This document shows positions 1 through 28,961 of a DNA stretch of 38,145 nucleotides, piece after piece. How positions within the stretch are numbered: position 1 is the first letter of the stretch; every line of letters begins with the position of its first letter. Source of the stretch: a virus; the IMG/VR virus record IMGVR_UViG_3300047326_000087, positions 1-38,145 of that record; one strand, 5' to 3'. Position numbers and translations under genes: made by a program. The notes beneath the pieces were generated by a model, which was not told the origin of the DNA, did no database searches, and saw nothing but the letters and a program-made list of their open reading frames with translations.

Positions 1-3000
1 GCTGCGATAATCGGTAGTATCGAGGATCTGGTAATATCCATCGGTAAATGAGTGAGATAGGTTAGAGGTTAGAATTAGCTCGTTATTATTGGTTCCAATG
101 CTTTCGATTTGATACTGTCCTGACACATTAGATGGTGATGTAATGACGATATAGTCTCCGATGCTCGCATGCGAGAAGAAAGCTTTGGGATCACTAACCG
201 TGTTGCTACCAGCAATTCCTGAAAGAGTAGAGCCTGATAGTATCTGATATGAGTATCTAATTGCAGGAACCGTAATGCTATTCTCGGCTGTAGTGATTGG
301 GTATGCTTCCGCAATATAGAAGTATCCAAGATTCGTCATTGATGGATTTATGGGAGTGCAACAAACACTAACTGATGATATATGGGAGAACTTGATTGCC
401 GTATTCAGCGATTCGTTAGTTGTGAAATAGAGCGTTGTGGATACACTAATTCCGCCTGATATACCATTGATCGTGCAGGATACGGTATTTGCGTAGTTTA
501 TATTTGTTCCACCAATGTATACCGATAGGGTTCTACCATTATCTGATAGTGATGGCTGGTCAATGGTATATCCATCCATTGGATATCCATTATTTCCATA
601 CCCATCGTATACAAGATTACCATTGGCTGGGTTGTAAATGAGCTCGGTGGCTGATAGACAATAATGCGTAATCTCGGCATCGCATAACGATGCGGGAGAG
701 GGTAGATTTGTCATCAGTAGATTATTTGAACTGCCCCAGACATAGAATGACTGATTCACTCCACGATTATTGAGACCAAGTGTATTGATCAGCACAATAT
801 CATTCGGCGATGCACCATTTGTGAGGGTCAATATGTTGTTGCAATATCCGTCTTGACTAATTGAGTATGAAGGTTTTGTGGCATTAACCCCAGGTATCTC
901 CTCGGGACTATTTGCATACATAATGAAGGACACATTACTGGCAGAGATTGGTGAAGCTTGGTTTATAACCAACTCTGTAGCACTCATAACCTGCACTACA
1001 ATGAATAATCCATAACCATTAGGATTGTCGAGCGGGTCGGACATTTCAATGTCTGACAAATCGATCTGAATGAGCATTCCAGGAGTAATGCCATCAGAAA
1101 TGAAGTTGGATGATGAAGACGATACAACATCACTATTTTCGACGAGAACAAGGTCTGTTGCACTAAAAAGACTATGAATTAGCGAAATAGCTACATTTGG
1201 ATAGAGAGCAATATCTGTATGCACATCAAATGATGTCTGGTTGATTGAGAAGACGCCACCGGTCATTGTTATGGCAAGATTTTGATTGAGGACAAGAGAT
1301 TGCCCGTTGATTGCCACAATTGTGTATCCTAATGGAGAGAACCCTACGGAATCAATGAATATCGTATCACCAGGTGATATTGAGTAGGCACTAAAATTCA
1401 GAAACGATGAGACTATATTCGAGCCAGCTGTTGTAGTGAGATCATTTGATCCAACAATGCTTTTGTGAACCATTCCAACAATCTCTTCAGGATCTACCGT
1501 TCTGTATAGTTCAGACAAGTATGGGGTTGCGCTTCCGCCATACTTGATTATGTTTGGAACCTCAAACCCATCAATAAATAGATGTAGCTCATCTCTACGA
1601 CTTGCATTATTTATCTTCCAGGCAGTGGCTACTTGATGTAGTTCACCCGCTACCCACGAAGAAATATCTGCGCTCACCGAGCTTGCATTTCCAAATGAGT
1701 CTATGACTCTAAAATTCAGGTATCCGCTTTCATCCTTGTAGATTGAGAACCTATTCTTGGTGAACTTGCCAGCATCTACGAGATAGTGGTAGTTGTCAGC
1801 TACAAAAGTAATACCTTGTGCCACGGCTTGTCCAGATGCCGAAAATACAAGTGAATTAGTGCTCGATGTTATTGTTGAAGACGAGTTTGATGGAGCTGAT
1901 AGCGAGCGCGTGTTGGTATCGTAGAATTGCCCAGAAGTTTGCACATTAATGGTATAGTTCTTGGTAGTGTAGCCATCTGAATAACCATCCCAGTATCCAT
2001 CTTTTATGTCTATGAACCATCGATTGAATGTGCCACTCTGGTCTGCGGAGTAGTAGATAAATACCCCATCACGACTTTCATTTGGTTGACCCTGAACGGA
2101 TGCGAGGTTTTGTGTATTGAGAGTGAAGGTATTTGCTCCATAACCATAGTATGGATGATATCCGGCTGGACCAATAAAAATACTCTGAGGCGGGACAAGA
2201 TACCCATCTTTCATAACTGTGAAAGTTATATCTGATTGGTTGTCGATGCCATTCCATTGTGGATTTACCCAGAATTCGAGCGTTCCTTGTTCGAGACGAA
2301 GGTTCGATGACATAGGAAAGGATATCTTCTGACCTCGTGTATCTACAACAACTCCGTTGCCATATTTCGCTGGCACAAGATTGAATGTTCCCGTTGTTTT
2401 TATTGGCTCAGGATTGAGCAGAGAGTATCCAATTGTCCAGTTCTGAAACGCTGATTCAATGATATCAGGAGGAGTGTGCACGATAGTCTGAACGATATTA
2501 CGCATTGACGTCAGGGAGGGCCCAATTGGGAATGATTGCATTGCCGCCATTAGCGCATCACGATAGTTTTCCCGAGGAAGCGTTAGATCAAGGTTATTCA
2601 GTATTGGAATATTGATAAGAGTGCCAAAGTTTTTCAGCAAAGCATCTCGAAGCGCTCCTACCTTGTATGATACATAGTAGGTTTCTCCGGTATACAATGC
2701 GGATGATTGGCGGAAATCAAGCGCGTTATCACCATACTCGTAGCTAATCACAATCTCATCGGCAAGATATGTATAGTCGATGTAGTATCCGCCTTTATCA
2801 TAGTCTACAACAATTCGCGATATGTTGTTGATGGTGTATGTATAAATGACCGATACGGCATCCCCAAGATGGGGAGAAGCGTATCCATCAAGCACAAACT
2901 GCACTGGTGAACCAAGTATTACTGTCCCTTGATGAGAATTGCTCCATAATTGAGCTCCATCTGACAAACGCACAATAGATACGGTGAGTGTAATATTGGT

Positions 3001-5469
3001 AGATTGGTATAATAGATTTGAGTTAGCCGTGATATAGTATCCATCATTGCCGTGCGCTACCGTGTGATATTCGCTAAAAACTAATGGATTGACCGTAATT
3101 ATTGACCCATTTACTGAACAAGCGGAGGCAAAATTCACTGGCTGAGTATTATTGAGAAGATCCTGATACTCGTATAAACCACGAACATATTTGACCGGGT
3201 CGCTCACTCCGGCTGTAAAGTTATCCAATTCTCCAAATGTTCCTACCTGATTGTTGAGTATTTGATATGGGTAGTCCGCGTTATCATTTAGAAGCTCTTC
3301 GTTAGCCAAATCGAATGCACTCGGAAGAATTGAGTTGTAAGTAAACGATGTATATGGGAAGGTTTTGAGCTTTTGAGTTAGCGAAGAAAACTGATAGTAG
3401 ATATCTTGAACCGTGATGATATTATCGAACTGCGGAACAATATAACCAATTTTGTATGATATGGTTCCTATTGCTATACTCTGGGTTGAGGAAGTGAGCA
3501 GATAAACAACGCCATTAGTATAGTCTACTTGATAGTCCCCCACATTTATTAGTCGTGATTGATTATCAGATAGAGATAGGTTATTGTCGAAGTAGATTTC
3601 CTGAACAAAAACATATGGGTCTGAAAAAGATACGCTTGTGTTTATAGATGAACCTATGCAGTCTTGAGATGATCCGATGAGATTGTTATTATTGAGATCG
3701 ATAGTGAATATAACTGTTGATCCCGAAACTATTGAGGTGGTGTTGACAAACATAACCTCATTGAGGACATCGAGAAAATTCGCCCTCTCATAAGTTTGAG
3801 TCTGAATATTGGGAGCATTGACATATGTGAAGTAGATGGTGGTATCATTCCATCTTGAAACTCCATAGATTTCTCCTGTGGTTTGATTATAGATTCTGAA
3901 TACATCAGTAATAGGGAAGTTCTGGGGCTGAATTGCGTTCAATGCCACGAGATTGTTGTTAATGAATTCCTCCAATACCTCGACATGCGACGATACTTGG
4001 TAGTCTACACCTTGTGCTAAAACGGCTTCATATGAATATGAGACATTGGCGTCAGCTTCCGCGAGGCTGCCATTTGGCAAGTAAGCTATATCTTGCGTAT
4101 CGGTCTCATAGGTATAGTCGATTAGTGGAGAAAATACATATCGATAGGAATAGGTGGCAAGCGGAGGGTAAGCCCCCGTTCCGTCATTTGTAGATGCTCC
4201 GTAGACATATACGGTTCCACTTGCGTAATCTACCGAGTATTGTCCTGGAATAGATGGAAGATAGTTTAGAGTAAATGGAAGCTCATTGATGAAAGCTGGA
4301 TGAGGGGTATTTGATCCTGGATATGCATTAGGATCTATAAATACCACATCTCCTACTGATCCTGACTGATCAGAAACGGATACAATCGGAGCGTGGGCAA
4401 GATTGAAAACGGTCTCAAGAGGTGGGATTACTTCGCGTGATGATTGAAGGACTGTGTCGATTGATAATGTTGTAGGGTCAATATTTCTTCCGGTATCTTT
4501 ATATTGATAGGACACCTCGACATACATAATGCCCTCTATCGAGAAATTTGGATCTGATAGAATTGAGCTACTCAGGATAATCTGGTTGCTTGCCATCGAA
4601 AGATATGTAGAGGCGTAATCAGGATCATACTCTGATGTTAGTATCTGATACCCATATCCATCAATATCGTAAGTGTATGATGAACCATTGTAGACGAAGA
4701 CTACTCCATTGAGTATGATAACATTCTGATTGCTTAGATCGAGTGTGAGGGTTTCGACATTGAAAACTCCGGTGGCGTCTTTGGATGACGGAAGAAGGTT
4801 CTCACTAAACGGCGCGGCAAGCAGTGAAATTGGATAGGTAGGGAATGATGGAATATTAGTGAGGCTTGTGGAAGTAGTTCCAGTTGGTGTTGTTCCGACT
4901 CTTGTAATCTCATAGGCCGCCTCCTCATTGAGGCGATCGAAAGCCCCGCTGCCTCGCTGATGTTGTTCATCTACAATTGTGTAGGATAGATAGTTCTCGT
5001 TTTTGACTTGTCGAATGTCATATAGCCCTTGAGCAAGCACTGTAGATAGCGCATCGATATAGTTAGCCACATTGCTCGGAGCTTCGAGGTTGTAGAGATT
5101 ATTCTGTAGGAAGTTGTTTAGATAGGTTTTTATTGGGTTGTCTGTTCCAACCGGTCCAGTAATTAGAACCCTGTTAGTCACCCCATCATTGAGAATGAAA
5201 GCCGTGCCATTTAGCGACTGAAAAGGACTGCCGGTTATAGATTGGAAGGTAATAAAGTAGTCAGCCAGGGGCGTGAGTGGCTGAGTGGTAATATTTAGTG
5301 TTGTGCCGGATACACTAACCGTGAGAACCTCTGGGATTGGAACGCCAGGCGTTTGTGGACTAATGGTTATGTTTGCCGGAACAATCTCTTCGGTAAGAGT
5401 CGCCGTAAATGTAGCCGTAATATTCGTGGCATCTACGACTGTAACTTGTAGTATTCGAAGATTAGCCAC
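1..5469 (-). CDS. Giant baseplate wedge/fibre protein with LamG-like domain (3' end outside window)
   Basis: My own translation gives a frame open from a GTG at 5469 to base 1, 1823 codons with no stop, so the C-terminus is missing. The GTG lies 2 nt after the stop of the J-like gene, with AGGGA 11 nt upstream. Residues about 1-90 look like an Ig-like beta domain. Residues about 95-190 contain NENYLS and DEQHQRGSGAFDRL, a region I compare with gp7/gpI-type wedge proteins because it follows the J gene. The middle carries repeated VDY-x-x-G-x-x-Y hairpins. Residues about 1010-1310 resemble a LamG/concanavalin-like jelly roll (GTLEFWVNPQW, later ELHQVATAW and LHLFIDG), a fold that often binds sugars. 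The end holds small beta modules also found in sheath and J. Probable role: baseplate periphery or receptor contact. The gene is certain; the function is inferred. Confidence 0.85.
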   Translation of the reverse strand, partial: MANLRILQVTVVDATNITATFTATLTEEIVPANITISPQTPGVPIPEVLTVSVSGTTLNITTQPLTPLADYFITFQSITGSPFQSLNGTAFILNDGVTNRVLITGPVGTDNPIKTYLNNFLQNNLYNLEAPSNVANYIDALSTVLAQGLYDIRQVKNENYLSYTIVDEQHQRGSGAFDRLNEEAAYEITRVGTTPTGTTSTSLTNIPSFPTYPISLLAAPFSENLLPSSKDATGVFNVETLTLDLSNQNVIILNGVVFVYNGSSYTYDIDGYGYQILTSEYDPDYASTYLSMASNQIILSSSILSDPNFSIEGIMYVEVSYQYKDTGRNIDPTTLSIDTVLQSSREVIPPLETVFNLAHAPIVSVSDQSGSVGDVVFIDPNAYPGSNTPHPAFINELPFTLNYLPSIPGQYSVDYASGTVYVYGASTNDGTGAYPPLATYSYRYVFSPLIDYTYETDTQDIAYLPNGSLAEADANVSYSYEAVLAQGVDYQVSSHVEVLEEFINNNLVALNAIQPQNFPITDVFRIYNQTTGEIYGVSRWNDTTIYFTYVNAPNIQTQTYERANFLDVLNEVMFVNTTSIVSGSTVIFTIDLNNNNLIGSSQDCIGSSINTSVSFSDPYVFVQEIYFDNNLSLSDNQSRLINVGDYQVDYTNGVVYLLTSSTQSIAIGTISYKIGYIVPQFDNIITVQDIYYQFSSLTQKLKTFPYTSFTYNSILPSAFDLANEELLNDNADYPYQILNNQVGTFGELDNFTAGVSDPVKYVRGLYEYQDLLNNTQPVNFASACSVNGSIITVNPLVFSEYHTVAHGNDGYYITANSNLLYQSTNITLTVSIVRLSDGAQLWSNSHQGTVILGSPVQFVLDGYASPHLGDAVSVIYTYTINNISRIVVDYDKGGYYIDYTYLADEIVISYEYGDNALDFRQSSALYTGETYYVSYKVGALRDALLKNFGTLINIPILNNLDLTLPRENYRDALMAAMQSFPIGPSLTSMRNIVQTIVHTPPDIIESAFQNWTIGYSLLNPEPIKTTGTFNLVPAKYGNGVVVDTRGQKISFPMSSNLRLEQGTLEFWVNPQWNGIDNQSDITFTVMKDGYLVPPQSIFIGPAGYHPYYGYGANTFTLNTQNLASVQGQPNESRDGVFIYYSADQSGTFNRWFIDIKDGYWDGYSDGYTTKNYTINVQTSGQFYDTNTRSLSAPSNSSSTITSSTNSLVFSASGQAVAQGITFVADNYHYLVDAGKFTKNRFSIYKDESGYLNFRVIDSFGNASSVSADISSWVAGELHQVATAWKINNASRRDELHLFIDGFEVPNIIKYGGSATPYLSELYRTVDPEEIVGMVHKSIVGSNDLTTTAGSNIVSSFLNFSAYSISPGDTIFIDSVGFSPLGYTIVAINGQSLVLNQNLAITMTGGVFSINQTSFDVHTDIALYPNVAISLIHSLFSATDLVLVENSDVVSSSSSNFISDGITPGMLIQIDLSDIEMSDPLDNPNGYGLFIVVQVMSATELVINQASPISASNVSFIMYANSPEEIPGVNATKPSYSISQDGYCNNILTLTNGASPNDIVLINTLGLNNRGVNQSFYVWGSSNNLLMTNLPSPASLCDAEITHYCLSATELIYNPANGNLVYDGYGNNGYPMDGYTIDQPSLSDNGRTLSVYIGGTNINYANTVSCTINGISGGISVSTTLYFTTNESLNTAIKFSHISSVSVCCTPINPSMTNLGYFYIAEAYPITTAENSITVPAIRYSYQILSGSTLSGIAGSNTVSDPKAFFSHASIGDYIVITSPSNVSGQYQIESIGTNNNELILTSNLSHSFTDGYYQILDTTDYRS

Positions 5470-5471
5470 GA

Positions 5472-8400
5472 TTAGTCTGTTCCCTGATTTACAATGATTG
5501 TGTTAGCAACAAAGCTCTGATTTTGCTGAGCAGTAATGGTTAGTGCCATCCCGTTTGCACCATCAATATTGAAAGCCGTGAGAGTAGCGTTAGCAACCCC
5601 AGATACCGTCTGAGCAGCTGTCACGAGATCTGAAAAGCTGATTGTTCCTCCGAGAACATTTGAGTTGATGGCCGCCGTGACTGCACTTTGGACATTCTGA
5701 ATGATGGTTGTAGTTGCAATAGAAGTCGTGGTAGAGATTATTACGCTAACGGTTGCATCAATTAGTAGCTCCTTGCTTTCTTTGACCAAGACATCAGCTG
5801 TAATTGGTCGAGCGGCTTCGATATCAAAGGTAACATCTGATACAAGTGCATTGTAGTTAGATTGAATTACAATACGCTCATTCTCTTGAGGAGCTAAATA
5901 GTTGTAGTAGGAAATGTATCTGGAGCCGGTTGCAGGTTGTGTAAAATACGCAAGTGTAAATCGAACGGAGGAAGAAGCATTGAATCCGCTTGAGATGTAG
6001 ACTTGCTCAATGGTTGCAAACTTGTTGTTCGTATAGAGTGTTCCGTTCTTGGTGAAGTATAGACTCTCTGAATTATTGTCAGTTGCGTAGTAGAATGTGA
6101 TATTGAGTGTATCACCTATAACTGGAGCATTGGTAAGATTGTTAGTAGTAGATGGTAGTGTAAACTCAAAAGCAGATAGACTCTCGTTGTAGAGCATCTC
6201 ATTGGTGTAGAAGAGGTTATTGTTGATCTGCGTTCCCCCTACATCGTAATTAGTCAATACGGAAGTGATTTGGTTGCCCGTTGTGACTGATACATTTTGC
6301 ACCTGGACTACTCGAATTAGGTAGTTATTTGATGGAATAGAAGTGGCGGTTGAATTTAGGAAAGTTAGTATAGCTGGTAGAACATTCTGGGTGAGACCAT
6401 TGGTTATAGCTGTGAATACTACATTGGCGACTTTTGTTACGGTCGTTCCAAGAAGAGTAACAACGCCTGTGTTATTGATTTGGTCAGTTGTCGTCAGCGC
6501 TACTCGTGTGGGAGACTGGTGAAGATTCTTGTTCGTAAAACATAGAACGACGACCTTATCACCCTGAATTGCGTCGATTGAACTTGGTAGCGAGAGAATG
6601 TTGTTGACGGGATCTATTGAGTCAATTGTAGAACTCCAAAGATCATCATTACTCTCAATTCTAATGACTGCTATCTGATCCTGGTTTAGATTTGAAACAA
6701 CGGTTCCAATGGTGAGTGTATTGTTCGATGAGTTGTATCCAAGAATACTGAATGTGCCGATGTTATTAGGATTGTGAGATGAGGTGATTGAGATATTCTT
6801 GCCCAGGATATTATCTACAAGAGCGAAACTGAAATTATTGCTGGTGAATGTGCCGGAGAGCCTATTTGAACTCAATCCTGATAAATACCCATCAGAAGCA
6901 TAACCGTCAGAAAGTCCCGTGGTGGTATCGATAACCGAGAACGACAAGCCTGATTCGGCAGTAAGTGTCTGAATAGGTATGTAGAATTCGTTGGTTGAAT
7001 AGTTGAACTCGAGAGTTTGAAATGACCTGCTAAAGACACGATTGTTGAAAGTGAAAGGCTGAGTGTTGATCAAATCATCCGCGAAATATAGCACAAGAAC
7101 ATTATCTCCTACGGCAGGAGCATTGTAGCCCGAGAAAATTAGCTCGTAGTTTCCACTTACATTTGTGGTCAGCGTTCCTTGGTTTGATGAGTTCCAAATC
7201 TCCGCATATGTTCGTAGGTCAATAACTGATATGACTTGAGAAGCAGTCATTGTGAGACTTGATGAGGATATACTCAAAGAGATATATAGCTGGTCGGAAG
7301 TATTCTCCTGAATTGTTTGGGTCTCACGCCTAATGGTATTCGATGTAATAGCGTTGATTGATCCAATGCTACTGTTGGCATTGAAAGTATTACCGGAACG
7401 ACTTAGTGGGAAATTTGTTATGCCTGCGGTGAGAATGTTTTGAACGGCTGCTATATATGTGACATCGAGATAAATCTGCGATGGTGCTGGAGTAATATTT
7501 ACGGACGGGATTGTAATCTGGTTTGCCACAACGCTTCCGCTTGATCCAACTACATTGAAAGCATCTGACTGATTGTAGATGATATTGACTTCGTTTCCTA
7601 CCATTGCTGGAGAATCCGTGGGAAGAATGAGTGTCACATTATACTTCAGCGATTCTCCTACCACAATTGTAGTATTGAGAATGTCTCCATCATCCTCAGC
7701 CGTAAAGTAAAGTTCTTCATTGGTATTGATAAGTTTGACGCTCTCTATGCTGTTGATTGGGCTGTCGAGTGCCGAGAGCGTAATGGCAGTCCTACCAACG
7801 AAATTGACGACTTCGCTTGTGCTAACGACTCCATTTGTAGTGCTGAATATGTTAGCCTCAATTACCGATGATATCACATGCTTTGATGAGCCAACAAAGA
7901 GTGTGTTTGTCGAGTTCTGGCTAAATAGAATTCGTTCAGTCCTAATGGCGTTTGAAATTCCCCAGTCTACGCTGTCGTCGCTTGGTCGAGGATTATTGTC
8001 GAGGATTTTTCCGTCGTAATCAGAGAATGGGTCATAGCTGATAAGCCAAGTATAATCAACCTGAAGAATGTTGCTTGGGGAAGGAAGAGTATTACCGCTG
8101 ATTTGAATTTGACCCGTTGTGTTGATAGATCCTGTGCCATTGAGATTTTGATTGATGACCGTGTATCGTTCCCCAGTGTTGACATTGAACACGCGAGTCA
8201 CATTCGTAGCTGGTGTATGAAGAAGCTGAATGATCGATTGGTCGGTCGTAGAAATCTGGCTATTCTCATTGGTGATTGAGATATTTTGAGTTGCATTTGG
8301 AAGCTCAATGATATTCGAGAATGTAGTTGCGTCTTGTCCGTTGAACTGAGATTTGACCAGATTCTCATTGAATACAATCTGATTGCTGATCCAAGCGAAT

Positions 8401-9554
8401 GTATCTGATCCCCATGGACTACCACCATAGGGTCCAGTGTCTTTGATCAACTCGTAATTTCCACTCACAACACCGAGAGAATTCACCGACTTGGGTAGGA
8501 AATTTGCGCCGCTCTTCGACCCTGTCACGGATAGAATGCTATCTACTGGCTGAGCCGGAAGGGTTCCATTGGCAATATCTTTGATGCGTCTCTGGGTAAT
8601 CGTTAGTCCTGCATCAGCTGAGATTTGCCCAAGCACAAAATTGTTTGCCGCATTCGTGGGGTCATTCTGATTACTCTTGTCCTGATAGATGAACGTATCG
8701 GTATACTGTAATTCTCTTTCACCAAGAATAACAACATCTACCTTTCCGCCTGTTCCCTCCGATAGAATTGTGTATGAGCCGTTTGAGTTCTCTTGCACAA
8801 CTGTTCCATCTCGAGTCATCAATGGATTGCCCGGACCAATTACTGCCGCATCCTCTACCTGATTGTCTGAAAGAGCAATGTTCTGATAACCAAGAGCCGT
8901 GCCGATGTTCGACCCGCTAAATATCGCGAGAACACGATTACGGAATGTAGCGTCATCTTCCTGATTGCTTCCGCCAGTGAATGGGAACACATTGGTCACA
9001 TTCGATACACCAACGGTAGAGGTAGAAGTGATTGAGTAGTTAGAGATGTTGCCATTTACGCCAGCCACTGATGCTTGAGCTGATACTTCAACCGCATATG
9101 GATCTGTGATATTGAGGAAGTTCAGGTTGTTCTGATATTGAACGGCTATTGACTTGTAAGAGTTAGCCATCGATGGATTGACACTAACACCATTGACCAC
9201 GGTAAAAGTAATCCCATTAGTTGCCGTGAGAATGTCGCCTGCATTGATACTAACGGTAGCTGGAAGAGAAGCGAATGTATAGAGAGCAGTGCCTGTGGCT
9301 TGTTGAGCTACTTTGCGAGTGACTCCATAGTTTTGAGCAAGTCGGTCGAGGTCATTGCCGGAAACAATTCGAAGAGACTGCAAGTTAGAGATCTTGGAAA
9401 GCTCATCATAAAGAAGAGCGATAATGCTTGATGGGGCGTCAACGAACAAGTCTCTAATGACTGAGCCAGGATTCATAGTAGCATCTGGCATTGACGCCTT
9501 GAAATAGTCCAAGAGCGATAATACAAGATCATTAGTAGTGCGAATCGTGACCAT
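5472..9554 (-). CDS. Baseplate J-like / gp6-like wedge protein, 1360 aa
   Basis: The N-terminus (residues 1-125) has the usual Baseplate_J layout: a helical start, SGNDLDRLAQNYGV, then TGTALYTF and INAGDILTATNGITFTVV. Residues about 195-235 (QEDDATFRNRVLAIF, then GTALGYQNIAL) and the C-terminus (about 1235-1345: FDIEAARPITADVLV, VLGGTISFSDLV, VSGVANATL) also fit. J/gp6 proteins form the wedge ring that holds sheath to baseplate. Usual family members are about 300-660 aa; here the core is interrupted by roughly 900 residues of Ser/Thr/Asn-rich beta repeats. One unit (887-950) resembles modules in the sheath. The ATG start has AGGA five bases upstream. It sits directly after the gp25-like gene, as in many contractile tails. 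Confidence 0.9.
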   Translation of the reverse strand: MVTIRTTNDLVLSLLDYFKASMPDATMNPGSVIRDLFVDAPSSIIALLYDELSKISNLQSLRIVSGNDLDRLAQNYGVTRKVAQQATGTALYTFASLPATVSINAGDILTATNGITFTVVNGVSVNPSMANSYKSIAVQYQNNLNFLNITDPYAVEVSAQASVAGVNGNISNYSITSTSTVGVSNVTNVFPFTGGSNQEDDATFRNRVLAIFSGSNIGTALGYQNIALSDNQVEDAAVIGPGNPLMTRDGTVVQENSNGSYTILSEGTGGKVDVVILGERELQYTDTFIYQDKSNQNDPTNAANNFVLGQISADAGLTITQRRIKDIANGTLPAQPVDSILSVTGSKSGANFLPKSVNSLGVVSGNYELIKDTGPYGGSPWGSDTFAWISNQIVFNENLVKSQFNGQDATTFSNIIELPNATQNISITNENSQISTTDQSIIQLLHTPATNVTRVFNVNTGERYTVINQNLNGTGSINTTGQIQISGNTLPSPSNILQVDYTWLISYDPFSDYDGKILDNNPRPSDDSVDWGISNAIRTERILFSQNSTNTLFVGSSKHVISSVIEANIFSTTNGVVSTSEVVNFVGRTAITLSALDSPINSIESVKLINTNEELYFTAEDDGDILNTTIVVGESLKYNVTLILPTDSPAMVGNEVNIIYNQSDAFNVVGSSGSVVANQITIPSVNITPAPSQIYLDVTYIAAVQNILTAGITNFPLSRSGNTFNANSSIGSINAITSNTIRRETQTIQENTSDQLYISLSISSSSLTMTASQVISVIDLRTYAEIWNSSNQGTLTTNVSGNYELIFSGYNAPAVGDNVLVLYFADDLINTQPFTFNNRVFSRSFQTLEFNYSTNEFYIPIQTLTAESGLSFSVIDTTTGLSDGYASDGYLSGLSSNRLSGTFTSNNFSFALVDNILGKNISITSSHNPNNIGTFSILGYNSSNNTLTIGTVVSNLNQDQIAVIRIESNDDLWSSTIDSIDPVNNILSLPSSIDAIQGDKVVVLCFTNKNLHQSPTRVALTTTDQINNTGVVTLLGTTVTKVANVVFTAITNGLTQNVLPAILTFLNSTATSIPSNNYLIRVVQVQNVSVTTGNQITSVLTNYDVGGTQINNNLFYTNEMLYNESLSAFEFTLPSTTNNLTNAPVIGDTLNITFYYATDNNSESLYFTKNGTLYTNNKFATIEQVYISSGFNASSSVRFTLAYFTQPATGSRYISYYNYLAPQENERIVIQSNYNALVSDVTFDIEAARPITADVLVKESKELLIDATVSVIISTTTSIATTTIIQNVQSAVTAAINSNVLGGTISFSDLVTAAQTVSGVANATLTAFNIDGANGMALTITAQQNQSFVANTIIVNQGTD

Positions 9555-10053: not shown

Positions 10054-11739
10054 TCAATTGTTCTGGTTAGTTAGCGAGAAATCTCCGGCTTTCAGGTCGT
10101 CAAAATACTGTTGAATGAGTTTGAGATTGATACTAACGCCAGAGTCGAGGTCAGCCATTGACTGCGCTATAGAATTCTGAGTCAGAGAAGTGGAATTGAG
10201 ATCTGTGCGCTTCTGAAGGCGAGCAAAAGCCCGCTGATCAATGAGTCCGAGCAGTGATGAGATAGGCATAACCCATAGAGTTGCTTGGATTGAAAGGATA
10301 TCAAGAAGCCCAATTCCTCCGAATTCACCCATTATGATCTCTATATTCTTTAGAGAAGTAATCGCATCATTGCCAATTCGATTGCGGATATTGTTGAGCT
10401 TGTCAAGCAAGTCCTGATAGGACTTTGTCGCAGATTTTCGAGCGTCAAATACCGTGTCATCAAGGTTTGAGAAGGCAAAATCTCCAGGATCAGTAGTTCC
10501 CGATAGTCCAAGATCAAATTGAGCCTGGTCAATATAATTACGCGCTTGAGCATCGAGAATATCCAACTCATAGTTAGGGTATCGTGTTTGATAGTTGGCA
10601 TTACGCTGACCATCGTTGCTGACTGAATTTAGCGTTCCTCCAGCTTCTGGTCCAAGTTTAGGATCAGGCGTAGGTTGCCAATTTAGGTTCTTCTCGACAT
10701 CCATAACATTGTCAATTGAATCATGTAGGGTTTGAAGAATTGCTCTCATCTGACGGAAATATCCCTGATAGATCATTATCTCCGACGAGTAATACTGGGT
10801 TTGATTTGCTGTGAACTGCAAAAGTCCCTGATCAGTAATTGCCTGGTTGCTCTGAATGTTAGAAGATAGAGCATTTAGGAATGATTGACTTGCGGCTTGA
10901 TTATTAGTAGGGTTGTTTGAATTGAGAGAGTTGCTAAGCCGAGTAGTTATAACCCGTTCAATATATGGTCTGCGAAGATAGGTAGACCCGCCATTTGGAT
11001 TGTCGATGATTTTGGTTTGCGTTTTATCGTAGAGAAAAGGTGCGCATATGTTATTCTTCGTAGGAATGACATTTGAGGCTATACGAGGATCGACAATAAA
11101 CGGGCGAAGATAGTGCTTTGAACGCATTAGAGTCGCAACATCCCCGCCATTGATCTGTGCAATCTCATCACTATAGAAAGCTGTAATATAGTTCACACGA
11201 TCATCAATGTTTTGTTCCTGCCCTTTATCAATTGCTGGAAATACGATACCATCTGTGAGCTGTTTTTCGAATGAACGAACAAATACCGATCCTATTGCAA
11301 GAGCAATAGCATTGAGAGTTTGAGCCGCGAATATTGGTAGGTAGTATTTCTGGGTATTGTTTTCCCTAACATCTAATTGGGTAGATGTGAAATTGGTATT
11401 CGCGATGATAATGTTGGCTATGTTGGTATACTTGGACTGTGAGATAACATCGAGATTTAGGTTAGGGTCGTATCCTGGGCTATAATACTGCCCACTTCCA
11501 TCAGTGGCAACAATGGGCAATCCGGTCATTCTATAGAATGCATTGATGCGAGACTCTTGTGGATTTTGCCCAAGATAGCTACGAATCTGATCAATGGGTG
11601 TAATGAGTGTTGTATATAACTCACCTATATCTACATTGAGATTGTCTTGATCATCATAGAATTGCGGCTGATGCGGAATTGGTCCCGAATGGATTGCTGC
11701 CGCAGCGGCGGGATCAAGAGTGCCTACATTACCGGCCAT
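10054..11739 (-). CDS. Baseplate-region structural protein of unknown fold, 561 aa
   Basis: I do not recognise a named family. The protein starts with an Ala/Gly/Pro-rich segment (residues 1-25), then mixed alpha/beta sequence. It is rich in Asn and Gln, has no signal peptide, and has at most a mild hydrophobic patch near 135-155 (AQTLNAIALAIGSVFV) and another near 475-500. The last 120 residues look largely helical. The ATG is preceded by GGAGG seven bases upstream, overlapping the end of the 708-aa gene. Its place between the membrane-spanning baseplate protein and the gp25-like gene suggests an inner baseplate or hub-wedge connector. That is inference from position only. No catalytic motif is evident. 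Confidence 0.8.
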   Translation of the reverse strand: MAGNVGTLDPAAAAAIHSGPIPHQPQFYDDQDNLNVDIGELYTTLITPIDQIRSYLGQNPQESRINAFYRMTGLPIVATDGSGQYYSPGYDPNLNLDVISQSKYTNIANIIIANTNFTSTQLDVRENNTQKYYLPIFAAQTLNAIALAIGSVFVRSFEKQLTDGIVFPAIDKGQEQNIDDRVNYITAFYSDEIAQINGGDVATLMRSKHYLRPFIVDPRIASNVIPTKNNICAPFLYDKTQTKIIDNPNGGSTYLRRPYIERVITTRLSNSLNSNNPTNNQAASQSFLNALSSNIQSNQAITDQGLLQFTANQTQYYSSEIMIYQGYFRQMRAILQTLHDSIDNVMDVEKNLNWQPTPDPKLGPEAGGTLNSVSNDGQRNANYQTRYPNYELDILDAQARNYIDQAQFDLGLSGTTDPGDFAFSNLDDTVFDARKSATKSYQDLLDKLNNIRNRIGNDAITSLKNIEIIMGEFGGIGLLDILSIQATLWVMPISSLLGLIDQRAFARLQKRTDLNSTSLTQNSIAQSMADLDSGVSINLKLIQQYFDDLKAGDFSLTNQNN

Positions 11740-11742
11740 TTA

Positions 11743-13869
11743 TCATCCTCCGTTGTCCCGAGCGATATCGGCCGGGTCTCGTCGTGGCTCGCCAGTCGCG
11801 ACTGCGGGTGCCTCAACGAATGTGTAGTTTAGTAAGTCGATAGCAATTGAGGGCATCTCATCAATGGAGACCGGATTGTTCAGCGTGCTGATGTAGGTGT
11901 TGTTGAAGGCTACTTTGACCGTTCCATTTCCAGCGACTGTGCTGGAGATTGTGGCTGTATATGCGCTATACCCATCATATGTGAATTGAGATACTTCACC
12001 AAGAGAGACTACCGCTTGAAGGTTCGAGGCTATTGATTCTCCGACACTTGCAGGAATTCCTGTAGAAGTATTCTGTCCCGAGTTTTCGTTTATGGTGGCT
12101 GTAATGATAATGGGACGAGTTGTGAATTGAATTGTTGTATCAAGTTCAAAAGAACTCTGATACTGGTTGTATCCTGCCCCAATTACACCGGTCAAACAAG
12201 CAGTAGTCTGATTTTGTAGAGTCGTGAGACAAGCCATAATGTTGGTCTGAAGGTTATTAGCCGTTTCAATCGACATATTCTCTCGAAAGTTTGCGACATT
12301 ATCCGCAATACAAGCTTGAGCCGTGGCGACATCGGGCAGTGGAGAAGTAGCGAGAGCATTCGCAAGATTTACACCGGTCGAATTGAAGAGTCCACCGAGA
12401 GTTGTATTGATGAAGTCTCTGTTTACGGCAATCGTTGGCATACATCCGATGGTAATCAATGGTAGTAGTGCACCAGGATTGATATTGAATGTATAGGTTA
12501 TGTCTGAATATAACACACCAATATTTGGAGGAGTCTCACCACTTGATATGTATATTGGGGAAGAATGAAATACCTCATCGATGGTGGCTTTATTTCCATT
12601 TGAATCCACGATCGGTGTCGTTCCGTCATCTTCGGTAATGTATCCACCTACAAGATTAAGCGTTCCATCAAATGGTGCTGTATATGTCTTGCCATCGTAG
12701 GAGAGAACACCTTTAGTTGGCGGAGCTTTGACGATTGCGTTAGTGATGCGAATATAGCGTGGCTCTCCATAGGTTGTTAGACCAAGTTCTTGTGGATTGT
12801 AGAAGAGACGAAAATTGATTGTGTAGGGAACATTGGTCGGGTCGGTTGTATCATTATAGGTAGCTCCGCTTGGGAAAAACACCGTATTATTTCCGGCAGG
12901 CAGATCGAAAGCGTGAGTGATGTTGTAAAACTGCTGATCCTGAACAAGATTTGGGTCATAGAATTGCCAACTCTCTTGACGAACCGCGGACAACCCCGCG
13001 AATAATGCTTGGAATTCACTTGGGAATCCACTGGGTAGTGATACCGAGAGTCCTACTTGTGGGTAGTATTGAAAGAAGCCAGTGCTACTCGTAATACCAT
13101 TGGTTGCATTGTTTTTGATGAATGCAGGACATACATCGCTCGTGCAGCATCCATCCGCACTACCATCGGATGATGAACACGGTGGAATATCGAAACTCTG
13201 ACCAATCATTCCCTTGATCAATTCTACTATGAGTAGAATGATTCCAAAGACTACAAACAAATCCTGAAGCAAGCAAAGCAGGTCTCCTATCTTGCGGGTA
13301 ATGGCTATGATAGTGTTGTTATCAAGTCTTTTTACTGCAAGTGAGAGTATCTTTATGTTCTGAATTATTATCTGGATGATATTGTCGATGCGCTGAATAA
13401 CATACTCTATAAGAGCAAGAACAAGAAGAAGCAGTGTTGTGACGATGACAATGAGAGCAAGGAACGGAAATAGCGAAACAAATTCAGGTAGGCAGACTCT
13501 GAAAAGTCGTGAAAGAGCGCGAGGGAGTTTGAATGGGTTTGGAATTGCACATAGAACTTCGATGATACAAAGAATTAGATTGAGCACCGGCAAGAAGAAC
13601 TTGTATAGCATCAAAAAAGGCATACACTGCTCTAAAAGAGATAAGAATGCACTAAATGGCTTGTTAGCCACATCTGCGTCGAGATTTGGCTTTAGTCCTC
13701 CTGATGGCAGAATCAGGCTCAGAGTATTGAATAACCCAGTCAAATCCGGCAGGGCAATTGGCGGATTTTGGATATTTAGGTTAGGGAGCGTGGGAGCAAA
13801 ACCAGTCGTTCCAGCGGGTGGCGCCGGAGGATGAAAGTTTGACTCATTAAGTGGTTGGCAGGGACACAT
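11743..13869 (-). CDS. Membrane-spanning virion protein in the baseplate cluster, 708 aa
   Basis: Residues 1-60 are Pro-rich with an MCPC start. Residues about 80-220 hold three or more strongly hydrophobic stretches (83-107, 128-158, 198-219) separated by basic or amphipathic helices, a clear multi-pass membrane region. A Cys cluster follows (about 231-247, with CC and DVCPAF). The remaining 450 residues look like beta-rich virion sequence. It contains a YDGYSAY tract and ends with EPRRDPADIARDNGG. The combination of membrane helices and a long soluble domain among spike and wedge genes suggests a protein carried in the tail and inserted into the host membrane during injection, or one needed at the membrane during assembly. 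Both are inferences. The ribosome binding site before the ATG is weak (AGAAG). Confidence 0.8.
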   Translation of the reverse strand: MCPCQPLNESNFHPPAPPAGTTGFAPTLPNLNIQNPPIALPDLTGLFNTLSLILPSGGLKPNLDADVANKPFSAFLSLLEQCMPFLMLYKFFLPVLNLILCIIEVLCAIPNPFKLPRALSRLFRVCLPEFVSLFPFLALIVIVTTLLLLVLALIEYVIQRIDNIIQIIIQNIKILSLAVKRLDNNTIIAITRKIGDLLCLLQDLFVVFGIILLIVELIKGMIGQSFDIPPCSSSDGSADGCCTSDVCPAFIKNNATNGITSSTGFFQYYPQVGLSVSLPSGFPSEFQALFAGLSAVRQESWQFYDPNLVQDQQFYNITHAFDLPAGNNTVFFPSGATYNDTTDPTNVPYTINFRLFYNPQELGLTTYGEPRYIRITNAIVKAPPTKGVLSYDGKTYTAPFDGTLNLVGGYITEDDGTTPIVDSNGNKATIDEVFHSSPIYISSGETPPNIGVLYSDITYTFNINPGALLPLITIGCMPTIAVNRDFINTTLGGLFNSTGVNLANALATSPLPDVATAQACIADNVANFRENMSIETANNLQTNIMACLTTLQNQTTACLTGVIGAGYNQYQSSFELDTTIQFTTRPIIITATINENSGQNTSTGIPASVGESIASNLQAVVSLGEVSQFTYDGYSAYTATISSTVAGNGTVKVAFNNTYISTLNNPVSIDEMPSIAIDLLNYTFVEAPAVATGEPRRDPADIARDNGG

Positions 13870-13898: not shown

Positions 13899-15962
13899 TT
13901 AGATTTGCCCCTTGAAGTTGTCTTTCACGACTTCTCTACCTTGTAAATAGAGGTTTTCTGCCTCGAGATACATATCAGAATTTGAGTGCAGCATTACATG
14001 ACCATTAGCCGAACAAACAATTCCGCCAGGAGTTGATATTGTAAGCCCTGTCTGATCTACTCGAATAACGGTCAGCGCTCCTAACCCATCATAGACACGG
14101 ATATCGAAAACTCCCGCAATTAGTCCCGTATTTGCGCCCAGCGGGGAATTCGCGAAGCGGGTTATTCCATTTGGACCAGGTTGCTCAGAAGGCACTGTGC
14201 TTCCGCCTATCTCAAGCAACACCTGACCATCGAATTTCCCAGCTAAACTTATGTTTTGCAGGTCTCTTCCCACTGCCGCAACAATTCCTCCTTGTGTATC
14301 GAGCCAGAGACTTTGACGATCAATAGTGTTTGCCCCGATATTTATCTCAATCGATCCATCAAAATTCATCTGTCCACTTCGTCCTCCGCCATTGGCATTA
14401 GGACCGGCTGTAGTGATAGTGCTGCTAACTACATATGGAAGAGGCGATATTAGACCATTAGCGAGACTTGTGATCGGAACATACTCTGGCGGAACATATT
14501 CAGTGCCAGTCTGGAATGTTATGCAGGTCTGAGCGATATTGTGATACGCGGTGCCGAGACCAATGTTAGCTGATGTAATACGATCAATTGGTCCCGATGA
14601 TCCACCAAGGTCATCTATGAGACTGATCGGCGAGGCATTCGTGAATGATTCGATTAGAATGTCTGTATTATCACTATTGAAAAGTAGCGCATTTGGGTCT
14701 TTAGTAGCTGGGTCGAGATTCACCGTTGAATAGTTCTCATAGCGTGTAAGGAGAGGAATATTACCCTGTTCACTGCTCGCGGGAACATTGAGTTTGAATT
14801 GCCCTTCTTTATCGATATCGAAGTGAAATCGGCTACGAAGCCGTGCATAGTTGTTTAGATTGTTGACATCGGGAACACCGCTACCATTGGTTTCCTTGCG
14901 AGCATTTACCTCAAAATGGTAAGCAAGACTTTTGCGCTCAAAGCGTTTTATCTGCTCATAGACATTGTGGAATGTATCTTGGTTAGCAGTTGATTTGATA
15001 TTGGCAACCGATAGCTCGGCATTTGTGCCGATGGGAATCACGCTCCTATTGATGTCTACGATGTTGCCGAAGATATCAATGACTGTTCCCTTTATACTCT
15101 CCATAAGGTAGTTTGGAGAAACGAGGCTTAGACTCAGCGCGTCAGCTCTTCCTTCTCGTCGATTGATAAAGTATGGAAGAGTAGAAGACACATTACTTTG
15201 TGAGTTTGGGTTATATGCCTGAAGTTCCTGATCGTTGCTTCTAACATATGCTGTTTGCTCATATTCAAATACCGTCTCGTGTTTTTCAATGCGAGCCGGG
15301 TTTCTAACCGATGAACCCGCATTAGATAGGCTTGTTGTCGCAATGGGATCCATTCCAACTTCTTTCAGCACATCATCATAGGAGGCATCTGTTGCTCTCA
15401 ATGACTTTGAGAATATGGTGGATGGAACTCTGTCTCTTCCTACCGTGCCCTCGACCATTCTACCTGCTTCAGAGAGCGTGTAGTTGTTGTTGAAGGTATT
15501 GATAAGCACACCACGATTAGTGTCGAAAACAAACGAATCATTGTAGTCACCAATTGTTATACCATTGTCATCGAGTATAATAGACTCATTGGTATTTGCC
15601 TGAATAATTATCTGATCGTCAGTGAGAGAGGGTAGAATTATCTGTGTCGGTGTAGTTGTATTCTTGGCCGAGGGATCTTGAGCAAGGAACGAAACGATAA
15701 AGTAGTTCGCTCCTCCTTCCGCTTGCGCCACGAGAACCGGCGTTCCACCCGCGGGCTTTCCACCAATAAAACCGCCTCCTGACGAGAAATATGAGATGGG
15801 AAGTTGTGCCGGAACAATTTGAGCCTGACCAATTGGCGAATCCTTGATCTTGACATAAGCTATCTTGAGGCTCAAATCCACATGATCAATAGATGCCACA
15901 CGCAGAAAACCAGAAGGTCTCTGCATTACATGATCGGCAACTCCCCTATTATCCCGCATCAT
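13899..15962 (-). CDS. Baseplate spike (gp5/gpV-like), 687 aa
   Basis: Residues about 15-100 read like the OB-fold of tail spike proteins (GFLRVASIDHVDLSLKIAYV, then GGTPVLVAQAEGGANYFIVSF). A short beta segment follows (DDQIIIQANTNESIILDDNG). The C-terminal 170 residues have the repetitive turns of a spike beta-helix or beta-prism (FDGSIEINIGANTIDRQSLW, IVAAVGRDLQNISLAGKF, ISTPGGIVCSANGHVMLHSN). No lysozyme or other hydrolase domain is visible, unlike T4 gp5. The gene begins with two consecutive ATG codons; AAGGAG lies 13-16 bases upstream, inside the end of the hub gene. Its position right after the hub gene supports a role as the membrane-piercing spike that sits on the hub. Confidence 0.75.
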   Translation of the reverse strand: MMRDNRGVADHVMQRPSGFLRVASIDHVDLSLKIAYVKIKDSPIGQAQIVPAQLPISYFSSGGGFIGGKPAGGTPVLVAQAEGGANYFIVSFLAQDPSAKNTTTPTQIILPSLTDDQIIIQANTNESIILDDNGITIGDYNDSFVFDTNRGVLINTFNNNYTLSEAGRMVEGTVGRDRVPSTIFSKSLRATDASYDDVLKEVGMDPIATTSLSNAGSSVRNPARIEKHETVFEYEQTAYVRSNDQELQAYNPNSQSNVSSTLPYFINRREGRADALSLSLVSPNYLMESIKGTVIDIFGNIVDINRSVIPIGTNAELSVANIKSTANQDTFHNVYEQIKRFERKSLAYHFEVNARKETNGSGVPDVNNLNNYARLRSRFHFDIDKEGQFKLNVPASSEQGNIPLLTRYENYSTVNLDPATKDPNALLFNSDNTDILIESFTNASPISLIDDLGGSSGPIDRITSANIGLGTAYHNIAQTCITFQTGTEYVPPEYVPITSLANGLISPLPYVVSSTITTAGPNANGGGRSGQMNFDGSIEINIGANTIDRQSLWLDTQGGIVAAVGRDLQNISLAGKFDGQVLLEIGGSTVPSEQPGPNGITRFANSPLGANTGLIAGVFDIRVYDGLGALTVIRVDQTGLTISTPGGIVCSANGHVMLHSNSDMYLEAENLYLQGREVVKDNFKGQI

Positions 15963-26156: not shown

Positions 26157-28961
26157 TTAGCTACCAATAACGCCAACACCCACATTTACAAGTATCCAGT
26201 TAATCGGGTAAACAGGTTGGACAGCTACGCTAATATCGTACTGTCTTGGATCAACCGCATCCTGCACAATGTTTAGGTTCGCGAAATTCGTTATCAGTCC
26301 TTGAGAGATAAAGCTCTTTAGCAATGCTAAGGCTTTGGCGCTCATATTGGTTATCACATTCGGATATCCAGGCTGCCCAATAAAGCCCGACAAGCCCGAT
26401 CTAAACGATTGAGCAATCGTGTCGCGAATGAACACGATCGAAATCTCTTGCTCCTCAGGAGCCCCGCTCTGAGTAGTTGTCAATCCCCACACCACAAGCC
26501 CACCACCGCTGACCGGCATTAGACTTGTCACGCCAGCAGCGGCCAAATTCTGATAAACGGTTGGGCTAAACTGACGAGTATTCAAGATTGAAAATCCACT
26601 CAAAACCTTGTTCGTTAGAGGCACCGCCACATTCGGCACGCCTGCTACATAACCAGCCGCAGCTGCTGCGATATAGAATCCGTCCAGTGTCTGATTATCA
26701 GATCCTACTTGAACCACAATCTGGTCAGGGAAGAAATAGACGCAGCGATATGTGTTTCCGTATGCATTTGCCACCGAGTAATTGAGCAGATCTTCCGTAT
26801 CTCCTGCCAAAACTTCGGCCGGAGTATTACCTTGAATACCTTCCAGGATTCCGAGGCTCTCTACCGCAGCCAATGATTGTCCCGTCAAGTTAGCCGGAGT
26901 TAGTCCATTGATCGCACCGATAAAAGCCACTCGCTCTTTACGATTTCTGATATCACTCATAGATATGCAGTGATTGACTGCATTCTCGAAAATGACCGAG
27001 ATTGTCTGTAGTGGTAGAGGCACGAGAATATTGAGGGTTTGTGTTTCAAGCACACTCAATACGGTTTCCCACCCGGCATCGAAGAAACTGGCATCTCCCT
27101 CGTCCACCACGGTTACTCGAAGGCTATTGCCCGTTGGAATAACATTGTGATTGACCACAAGATAGAAGCTTTCCATTGTGGGATCTTGCACTTCAAATTT
27201 CAGGTTATTATCACTTGTGAATGCTTTAGCAACCGTGATAGTATGACCAGAGACCGCTATAATGTCGAAAATGCCAAGATTGCTCGCATCAGCTGAACTC
27301 AAAATCTGTAGTTTGTAATTGTTAAGGACTGGGTTGAAGCTAGCAAAGTTGATGCTTGCACTGGAAAAGGGTCCAGTTGCTGTGTATGCCGTGCCTGTAA
27401 TAGTCCCGTCTGTCCCTGCCGTTCCTGCTACAAGCTCACCGAAAACCGAATCAATCAGTTGAAAGTGCACACTTGTATCAGTAATGAAGTCAGAGAATAG
27501 TATTGGACTGTTGCCAGGAGAAGGAGGAGCAACATAGTTTGGGTTGAGCGCGGTAATTTGAAGAACTCCACCCGTGACTCCAATTACCGGGAATGTTCCG
27601 ATATCCACATTATAGTCTGAATCGATAATCTGAACCTGTTTGCCAAGATAGTTGGAGTTGAAAGATCCAACACTTGCACTGCTAAAGTATCCATCGACCG
27701 ATGAGTTGAAAATTCGATCGATATAACCATCTTGTCCAAAGTTTATCGTCTCAATTTCCTGAACTACCGAGTATGAGAATGAGTTTCCGCTGGGAGCAAT
27801 AGCGTTATCAAACACGAATTCGCTAATCGTTGGCTTTCCCGCCGTTCCAAGAGTATAGAATGGGAAGAGATTTGGCAGGATTTGCGTTTCAACAAGCGTA
27901 TTTGGATTAGTGACGAAGAAGTGAATCGACTGGTTTGTGGCTGGCTGAACACCGAGCGCGAATGGAATCACGAAGTCATTGACATTGGTGCTCGTCGCTG
28001 GGAAATTCGAGACAAGCTCGTATGAGGTGCGTCGTGGAAGCGGAGGTGCTGCCTGAACCGCAAGCACACCTGGCGTATCGTTAGCGAAAGCGAGCTGCCC
28101 ACCGAGAGAGAGAACATTGGTGAGACTAACTGGACCAGAAATCGCAGTGAGAGCAGCCATATTCTGCACATATGTAGGGTTGTTGATATTGGCGACCGGA
28201 ATGAAAGTGGCCGTGAGACTATCACCCTTGCTGAGAACTCCGCTGTAAACTTCGATTGTGAAGTAATCTCCAGGATTGAAAACACTGGTCTCGAGAATAG
28301 AAAAGCTTAGAATAGAGTTTGATACAACGACATTGTTAGCGACCCAAACGACCGAGTTTCCATAACCATCGAGGAGATTACCGGAAACGGAACCGAATGC
28401 CGTAAAAGAAGCGGTCATTGCAATTGGCTGATTGATATTGTTTCGCTGAACCGAGACACACTTGATTGTCCAAGTTTCCTGTGGAGCGTTCACATCAACA
28501 AGCTGAAGATTTTGGATTGAACCTTTACCTATATTTGTGGCACCGGTCGTGTAGTATGACCCGCCTTGATTGATAATGTAGGCTGCCTGAAGCTCGATAT
28601 TGCCTGTGGTAGGGTCGAGGCAGTAGTCGTAGCTATTGCTGAAGACGCCACTGGAAGGGATTGCTTGTTCAAGTCCTACAAGAGTGACTCCGTTCTTGAA
28701 AAGCTGGGTTCTATTTGACACGAGGGGAGCTTGGGAGATATTGAAGAAGCGACCCACGGCTCCTGTGGTGCTGGTAAAGCTGGAATTCAATCCGTCCTGC
28801 CCACCTCCAAGCGCGGAGGCGACTATGGTTAGATTTGTAGAACCCTCGCCGATTATGCACGGAATAAGGACTCCACCAGGAACGCTTGCGCCCGTGCTTT
28901 GAGTCTGGACATTAGTGTAAACTCCGGGTGTTGCGTTATTTATGCCTTCAATGTTGCTCAT
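26157..28961 (-). CDS. Tail sheath protein with inserted beta modules, 934 aa
   Basis: The N-terminus (TPGVYTNVQTQ) and the long C-terminal part (about 665-934: NRKERVAFIGAINGL, LAGDTEDLL, YIAAAAAGYVAG, TNKVLSGF, GVTSLMPVSGGGLVVWGLTT, IVFIRDTIAQSFRSGLSGFI, ending with DPRQYDISVAVQPVYPINWI) are typical of contractile sheath subunits. Common sheaths are about 400-700 aa. The extra length lies mainly at residues 100-640 and includes two copies of a small beta module (420-471 and 528-581), probably domains displayed on the outside of the tail. The ATG has GAGGA eight bases upstream. The 80-base gap before the gene shows no clear promoter. Confidence 0.92.
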   Translation of the reverse strand: MSNIEGINNATPGVYTNVQTQSTGASVPGGVLIPCIIGEGSTNLTIVASALGGGQDGLNSSFTSTTGAVGRFFNISQAPLVSNRTQLFKNGVTLVGLEQAIPSSGVFSNSYDYCLDPTTGNIELQAAYIINQGGSYYTTGATNIGKGSIQNLQLVDVNAPQETWTIKCVSVQRNNINQPIAMTASFTAFGSVSGNLLDGYGNSVVWVANNVVVSNSILSFSILETSVFNPGDYFTIEVYSGVLSKGDSLTATFIPVANINNPTYVQNMAALTAISGPVSLTNVLSLGGQLAFANDTPGVLAVQAAPPLPRRTSYELVSNFPATSTNVNDFVIPFALGVQPATNQSIHFFVTNPNTLVETQILPNLFPFYTLGTAGKPTISEFVFDNAIAPSGNSFSYSVVQEIETINFGQDGYIDRIFNSSVDGYFSSASVGSFNSNYLGKQVQIIDSDYNVDIGTFPVIGVTGGVLQITALNPNYVAPPSPGNSPILFSDFITDTSVHFQLIDSVFGELVAGTAGTDGTITGTAYTATGPFSSASINFASFNPVLNNYKLQILSSADASNLGIFDIIAVSGHTITVAKAFTSDNNLKFEVQDPTMESFYLVVNHNVIPTGNSLRVTVVDEGDASFFDAGWETVLSVLETQTLNILVPLPLQTISVIFENAVNHCISMSDIRNRKERVAFIGAINGLTPANLTGQSLAAVESLGILEGIQGNTPAEVLAGDTEDLLNYSVANAYGNTYRCVYFFPDQIVVQVGSDNQTLDGFYIAAAAAGYVAGVPNVAVPLTNKVLSGFSILNTRQFSPTVYQNLAAAGVTSLMPVSGGGLVVWGLTTTQSGAPEEQEISIVFIRDTIAQSFRSGLSGFIGQPGYPNVITNMSAKALALLKSFISQGLITNFANLNIVQDAVDPRQYDISVAVQPVYPINWILVNVGVGVIGS
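27219..27704 (-). repeat. Two copies of a small beta module inside the sheath gene
   Basis: Residues 420-471 (GYFSSASVGSFNSNYLGKQV, IIDSDYNVDIGTFPVIGV) and 528-581 (GPFSSASINFASFNPVLNNY, ILSSADASNLGIFDIIAV) share the pattern PFSSAS-x-x-F ... L-x-x-Y/G-K-x-x-I ... N/D-x-G-x-F-x-I-x-x-V-x-G ... I-T. A third relative is in the J-like protein (6705-6896). Similarity is at protein level only. Confidence 0.6.

Follow-up and report, generated by a model that had tools for sequence, protein, structure and literature searches.

A predicted six-stranded β domain shared by sheath, baseplate J-like and dockerin-domain tail proteins of very large phages

The textbook example of a wandering domain in phage virion proteins is the Ig-like domain, but it is seldom possible to tell which protein was the donor and which the recipient. 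According to the passages of Evseev et al. 2022 (PMC9230969) that cite Fraser et al. 2006, phage Ig-like domains are small β domains that have spread through virion proteins of unrelated kinds, where they would provide weak binding to surfaces. Where those passages treat extra domains of tail sheaths, the domains are handled sheath by sheath, often have Ig-like folds and lie away from the tube side, with a role in adhesion or stability being proposed. Tail and baseplate proteins also swap domains, as surveyed by Smug et al. 2023 (PMC10684548), mainly for catalogued ECOD domains. Behaviour of this kind is known: Ig-like domains move around among proteins of the virion, and tail proteins are mosaic (PMC9230969, PMC10684548).

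Here we describe a domain, referred to as module A, that resembles phage Ig-like domains in being small, β and spread over several unrelated virion hosts (sheath, J, dockerin-domain protein and edge protein), and that recalls the swaps of Smug et al. in residing in tail and baseplate proteins. It differs from the Ig-like domains in having no convincing Ig, FN3 or Big Pfam match, in being nested in loops, and in a within-genome copying that can be traced on a tree. Compared with the sheath domains in those passages of Evseev et al., it is found also in J and in the dockerin-domain protein, occurs in one to two sheath copies and has been lost repeatedly; compared with those of the Smug et al. 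survey, it lacks a convincing sequence match in Pfam, PHROG or the PDB and appears to move within one genome. A literature search found no description of the family, of its position within a dockerin or of copying that can be traced inside a genome, and all three appear to be new. Our reading, to which we assign a probability of roughly 70%, is that module A folds by itself, is inserted into loops and roams as an accessory domain among tail proteins in one clade of very large myophages.

The window, that is, the whole stretch of DNA analysed, comprises 38,145 nt (positions 1-38,145 of the IMG/VR record IMGVR_UViG_3300047326_000087). Relatives were taken from viral contigs, and the alignments held 43 further J rows and 44 sheath rows; the relatives' records are metagenomic, so that incompleteness or misassembly is possible. 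Three genes of the window are central to what follows.

26157..28961, minus strand: tail sheath protein, carrier 1 (934 aa; phrog_2839, 1.8e-13; phrog_23, 4.7e-7)
5472..9554, minus strand: baseplate J-like protein, carrier 2 (1360 aa; PF04865, 7.3e-17; phrog_6, 6.1e-38)
1..5469, minus strand: edge ORF, which runs off the contig (about 2390 aa in relatives)

The J-like protein passes the gathering score of PF04865 (61.9 vs 21.1 bits, residues 66-268). The sheath protein scored 20.1 bits against PF04984, under the gathering score of 31.4, and its assignment therefore rests on the PHROG sheath families and on the fold. Its model was aligned to the sheath of phage 812 with Z 31.1 and an rmsd of 2.8 over 319 residues spanning 28-930, the core fold being built of the N- and C-terminal parts. 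When relatives of the J protein were sought in prokaryote genomes by patterns, none was found, and hence no host can be named. It may be noted that four large ORFs of the tail cluster (10054-11739, 11743-13869, 13899-15962 and 15968-20941) are conserved, with about 47-48 aligned rows each in the fetched loci, the window included, and have no PHROG match.

The earlier note had aligned J residues 887-950 (window 6705-6896, minus strand) with two stretches of the sheath, which correspond to sheath residues 420-471 and 528-581. This resemblance proved sound. All three J/sheath pairs gave Smith-Waterman scores (BLOSUM62) of 62-63, reached by none of 5000 shuffles. When the J stretch was compared with the whole proteins of the window, the sheath was matched (score 75, 0/300 shuffles) and nothing besides it was clearly matched. 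In hhalign, the profile of the J module matched the sheath with 98.8% probability (E 8e-17, sheath 487-582) and again with 91.3% (sheath 397-470), whereas column-shuffled controls never exceeded 1.4% and none of 13 other tail families of the window exceeded 1.6%. The true length of the domain, about 100 residues, exceeds the stretch originally noted; it covers J 860-969, sheath 391-472 and sheath 494-596. By these comparisons, the J segment and both sheath segments are copies of one domain of about 100 residues, and they are the only three clear copies within the window.

6651..6977, minus strand: module A in J (J residues 860-969; profile E 1.3e-26), nested in the second of two B repeats
27177..27497, minus strand: module A, sheath copy 2 (residues ~489-596; profile E 7.0e-26)
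27543..27812, minus strand: module A, sheath copy 1 (residues ~384-472; profile E 5.8e-20), the oldest-looking copy

Every host protein is β- and Ser/Thr-rich, and Ser/Thr/Asn/Gly-rich β sequence in unrelated tail proteins might come to look alike by chance. One resemblance of this kind was indeed met: the copy seen by eye in the giant fibre near ELGKTIVV obtained just 0.5-3.5% by profile comparison, and that claim falls to composition. For J and the sheath, chance resemblance is already refuted and retains practically no weight with us, given the shuffled pairwise scores, the wide gap between 98.8% and the profile controls, and a structure search that gave back the same three carriers (below). 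Tail proteins of the phage, and those of its relatives, seemed to us unusually rich in the tripeptide DGY.

The fold of J residues 858-970 was predicted with AlphaFold (AF2) from 116 copies. The model was confident (pLDDT 89.9; 95-97 over most of residues 10-93) and consists of six β strands and a short helix. A model of the whole sheath, made separately (pLDDT 78), reproduces this order of strands in each of its two units. The outcome is thus one confident fold, not different folds, with scores far above the level of shuffles. Against viral predicted structures, Foldseek returned three hits below 1e-3, namely a dockerin-domain protein (6e-8), a baseplate J protein (2e-7) and a tail sheath (3e-6); against the PDB, nothing was found below 1e-3. 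The best neighbours of the model in VIA-align were 2kz4 (Z 7.0), 2rde (6.8), 9rks_O (6.7) and 9mu3_C (6.7). PilZ-type and phage neck/stopper β barrels stand near the top among the matches listed and are its best structural neighbours, but with 7-11% identity and Z below 8 they may share an arrangement only. No Ig domain occurs among the VIA-align matches listed, the best Z of 7.0 being to other folds.

The families listed for the 116 copies against Pfam and PHROG match at most three copies each, none better than about 1e-3, and a search of PDB sequences with the module A profile gave a best E of 0.063, which is chance level. With Pfam profiles of Ig, FN3 and Big domains, only Ig-type matches of 0.037-0.042 to single members among the 116 copies were obtained. 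Module A is accordingly a domain of six predicted strands that lacks a convincing sequence match in Pfam, PHROG or the PDB. The near-invariant residues of the J copy (D31, G32, F53, N74, G76 and I80) appear to occupy turns and the core, and nothing about them hints at an active site.

When an HMM built from the J and sheath copies only was run on the relatives, a third carrier was recovered: a dockerin-domain protein matched at about 1e-9 to 1e-20 in 29 relatives. In relatives it is encoded directly after the edge ORF; the window stops short of its gene. The protein has a type I dockerin, and module A lies between its two Ca-binding loops. Where module A is inserted, the first repeat alone matches Dockerin_1. 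Where it is absent, the dockerin is continuous: the L100 protein matches positions 1-54 of the 57 of the profile with both repeats (34.1 bits vs a cut-off of 22.9), and the L098 protein matches positions 1-55 of 57 uninterrupted, at 20.5 bits, which is below that cut-off. Type I dockerins were seen in tail-cluster proteins of very large phages at L018:21234-24089, L145:12701-16744 and L098:20028-22994.

Twenty phage records (up to 481 kb) were searched, and most of the large ones have about four strong copies, typically two in the sheath, one in J and one in the dockerin-domain protein. In the one-unit-sheath records that were searched with the module, there is a single strong copy, located in the sheath. 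The J proteins of seven of seven one-unit-sheath genomes are without module A; the J profile matched them at 1-739 and 1004-1363 only, which means that the whole B-A-B part is missing. In the J protein of L094, the B repeats are present and module A alone is absent. The sheath of L026, the window's closest relative, is 77% identical to that of the window and has lost unit 2. On the core tree the number of sheath units has changed at least four times, and one unit was lost at least three times. Each carrier (sheath, J and dockerin-domain protein) is thus represented by natural empty sites. The nearest named phage, Bacillus phage G, has no module A in its whole genome of 497 kb, and its J and sheath are short, without the middle parts. 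A tblastn search of named phages with two copies over 50,697 records found nothing.

Since the genomes with a one-copy sheath have no module A in J (7/7), the sheath copy looks oldest. Judged from distribution, the module A tree being unrooted, the first of the two sheath positions is probably the most ancient. The simplest history has sheath unit 1 first, with sheath unit 2, J and the dockerin-domain protein acquired afterwards.

On the unrooted tree, module A copies group by carrier, with almost the minimal possible number of changes. Unit 1 of the window's sheath clusters with the sole copy of the one-unit sheaths (99-100% support), and unit 2 groups with the J and dockerin copies (100/98), not with unit 1. 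J and dockerin copies of the same genome scored 92.0, compared with 88.5 (sd 19) between genomes. A general, ongoing gene conversion between carriers was rejected, as same-genome copies are no more alike. The clustering by carrier, together with the lack of a same-genome excess, indicates that the window's copies are not recent transfers. Moreover, identity to the J copy of the window is mostly no more than 15-42%, which also speaks against recent transfers on an absolute time scale.

Two lineages, by the placement of their copies, show later intragenomic copying. In L011, the edge protein has one full, clear module A at about residues 2058-2170, where eight of eight other edge proteins have none. 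This copy is the sister of L011's own J copy (support 99/98), and the two share 77% DNA identity over 48 bases; the direction would be from J to the edge protein. In L148, whose J is 60% identical to that of the window, a second module A replaces a five-residue hairpin loop of J. The extra copy scores 142 (BLOSUM) against the dockerin copy of L148 and 79 against the other J copy of that genome, and the tree puts it in the dockerin clade (98/94), which points to copying from the dockerin-domain protein into a second J site; placement with the J copies was not rejected (AU p 0.158). A quick tree of 126 rows had grouped this copy with J, a placement that was discarded because the likelihood was 42 units higher with dockerin and the careful tree agreed.

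It could be argued that module A does not move at all: tandem duplication would have produced the two sheath units, and one very old insertion each the copies in J and in the dockerin-domain protein. The carrier-wise clustering with almost the fewest possible changes would suit such a history, as would the lack of excess similarity within genomes. However, the extra copies in the L011 edge protein and in the J of L148 are nearest to copies of other carriers from the same genome or lineage, and sheath unit 2 sides with J and dockerin and not with unit 1, albeit on an unrooted tree. We consider an immobile module A quite improbable. The earlier note had proposed that a mobile surface domain spread between unrelated tail proteins of one phage. 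Spread between unrelated tail proteins is well supported by the non-homologous hosts, the empty sites and the two lineage-specific intragenomic copies; a recent spread within the window's phage is unsupported, its copies belonging to old carrier-specific clades.

For the roaming accessory domain that we prefer, the following course may be proposed. Module A, about 100 residues in six predicted strands, is inserted whole into loops of tail proteins that are not homologous to one another: one or two copies sit in the sheath, and others in the baseplate J protein and in the dockerin-domain protein. The module has come and gone at such sites, and has been copied, while the host proteins persisted, and we take it to be an accessory domain. 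From the first sheath position it would, in an ancestor of the group to which the window belongs, have reached the second sheath position, J and the dockerin-domain protein, and the within-genome copying from dockerin-domain protein to J and from J to edge would have come later. Homology, fold prediction, nested position, empty sites and lineage-specific copies have been shown above; the copying step itself would be an in-frame recombination at loop codons, either non-homologous or akin to gene conversion. Neither mobile-element machinery nor a target-site signature was found. The insertion sites suggest display on the outer tail surface, where the likeliest job would be to make many weak contacts with the cell surface and the second likeliest to cement neighbouring tail subunits.

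A cementing role may also be taken as the principal one, in place of host binding: where sheath, baseplate and peripheral subunits lie side by side, their A domains would touch one another or the next subunit and so stiffen the tail. Module A is confined to proteins of the tail cluster, the second sheath unit, the J copy and the dockerin copy occur in the same genome group, and cementing is among the roles proposed for extra sheath domains in the part of Evseev et al. 2022 (PMC9230969) considered here. Losses of a sheath unit (at least three) and the lack of the J copy alone in L094 are easier to understand if no partner contact depends on the module, and copies of one genome do not match each other better than others do. 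We regard a mainly structural role as possible but tentative. It is doubtful, in our view, that module A is a unit whose copying from one tail gene to another within a genome still goes on, and whose matching domains recognise one another or a shared ligand and so build a common interaction surface along the tail.

With the roaming accessory domain, gain, loss and direction can be followed directly, in a separate family that occupies three unrelated tail proteins, with an empty site for each and phylogenetically placed within-lineage copies. The carriers also provide a natural list of loops, belonging to a sheath, a dockerin and a wedge protein of the baseplate, in which an insert of 100 residues is tolerated.

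Looser copies had been claimed at three ranges of the edge ORF, two of which coincide, weakly, with A-like spots. The window's edge ORF probably contains distant module A units at these two places, going by profile comparison.

907..1164, minus strand: A-like unit of the edge ORF, probable and distant (residues 1436-1521; hhalign 22% without edge rows)
1..276, minus strand: A-like unit of the edge ORF, probable and distant (residues 1732-1823; hhalign 16.7% without edge rows)

With a profile free of edge sequences, edge residues 1436-1518 gave 22% and 1762-1820 gave 17% (controls at most 0.6%), and the third range, residues 1320-1395, gave 0.7%. A value of 90% from an iterated profile was set aside as circular, for that profile itself held edge sequences, and 22% and 17% are preferred. 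The unit at 907..1164 reached 55.5% against the profile of sheath unit 2. A-like units recur at orthologous sites in the edge proteins of relatives, in which module A was detected with E values of 5.5e-6, 4.5e-6 and 1.1e-4, and at residues 1718-1807 of the L149 edge protein with 1.3e-6. The tail tube gave a weak match (E 0.002-0.01 in one relative) and 0.7% by profile comparison. Residues 1208-1320 of the edge relative L011:14131-21633 match the lectin-like Laminin_G_3 (9.3e-10, above cut-off), pointing to a possible adhesin role for the edge ORF.

The strongest link between J and the edge ORF is another shared module, module B (98%), which stands far above module A in this respect and was absent from the earlier note.

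7056..7301, minus strand: module B, J repeat 1 (J ~752-833; hhalign 98.3% to repeat 2, 98.1% to edge)
6519..6692, minus strand: module B, J repeat 2 (J ~955-1012; hhalign 98.3% to repeat 1 after removing A)
2836..3072, minus strand: module B, edge ORF (residues 800-878; hhalign with J repeat 1 98.1%, E 1.3e-13)

The two J copies and the edge copy match one another at the profile level with 95-98% (shuffled control at most 1.1%) and follow the pattern RLSDGKELWN..GTV...GD.V.V.Y. The first strand of J repeat 2 (846-864) sits across module A from the rest of the repeat.

Some variants were seen in relatives. In the sheath L051:8390-11443, E1_FCCH (PF16190) is inserted in the second module A at residues 600-656 (33.9 vs 29.5 bits), so that one domain sits in another, which in turn sits in a sheath. 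This family is not among the 25 families listed of the 28 that match any of the 116 copies, where the insert-bearing L051 copy is shortened or omitted. The sheath L050:377-3409 has about 75 extra residues before an eroded second unit, and belongs to the same phage as the J protein with two module A copies. Finally, a protein of about 500 aa (L140:1209-2696, L142:205-1707 and L141) carries a half-length look-alike of module A (VGKFLTISGAANAGNNGTFLI) with E values of 2e-6 to 5e-4.
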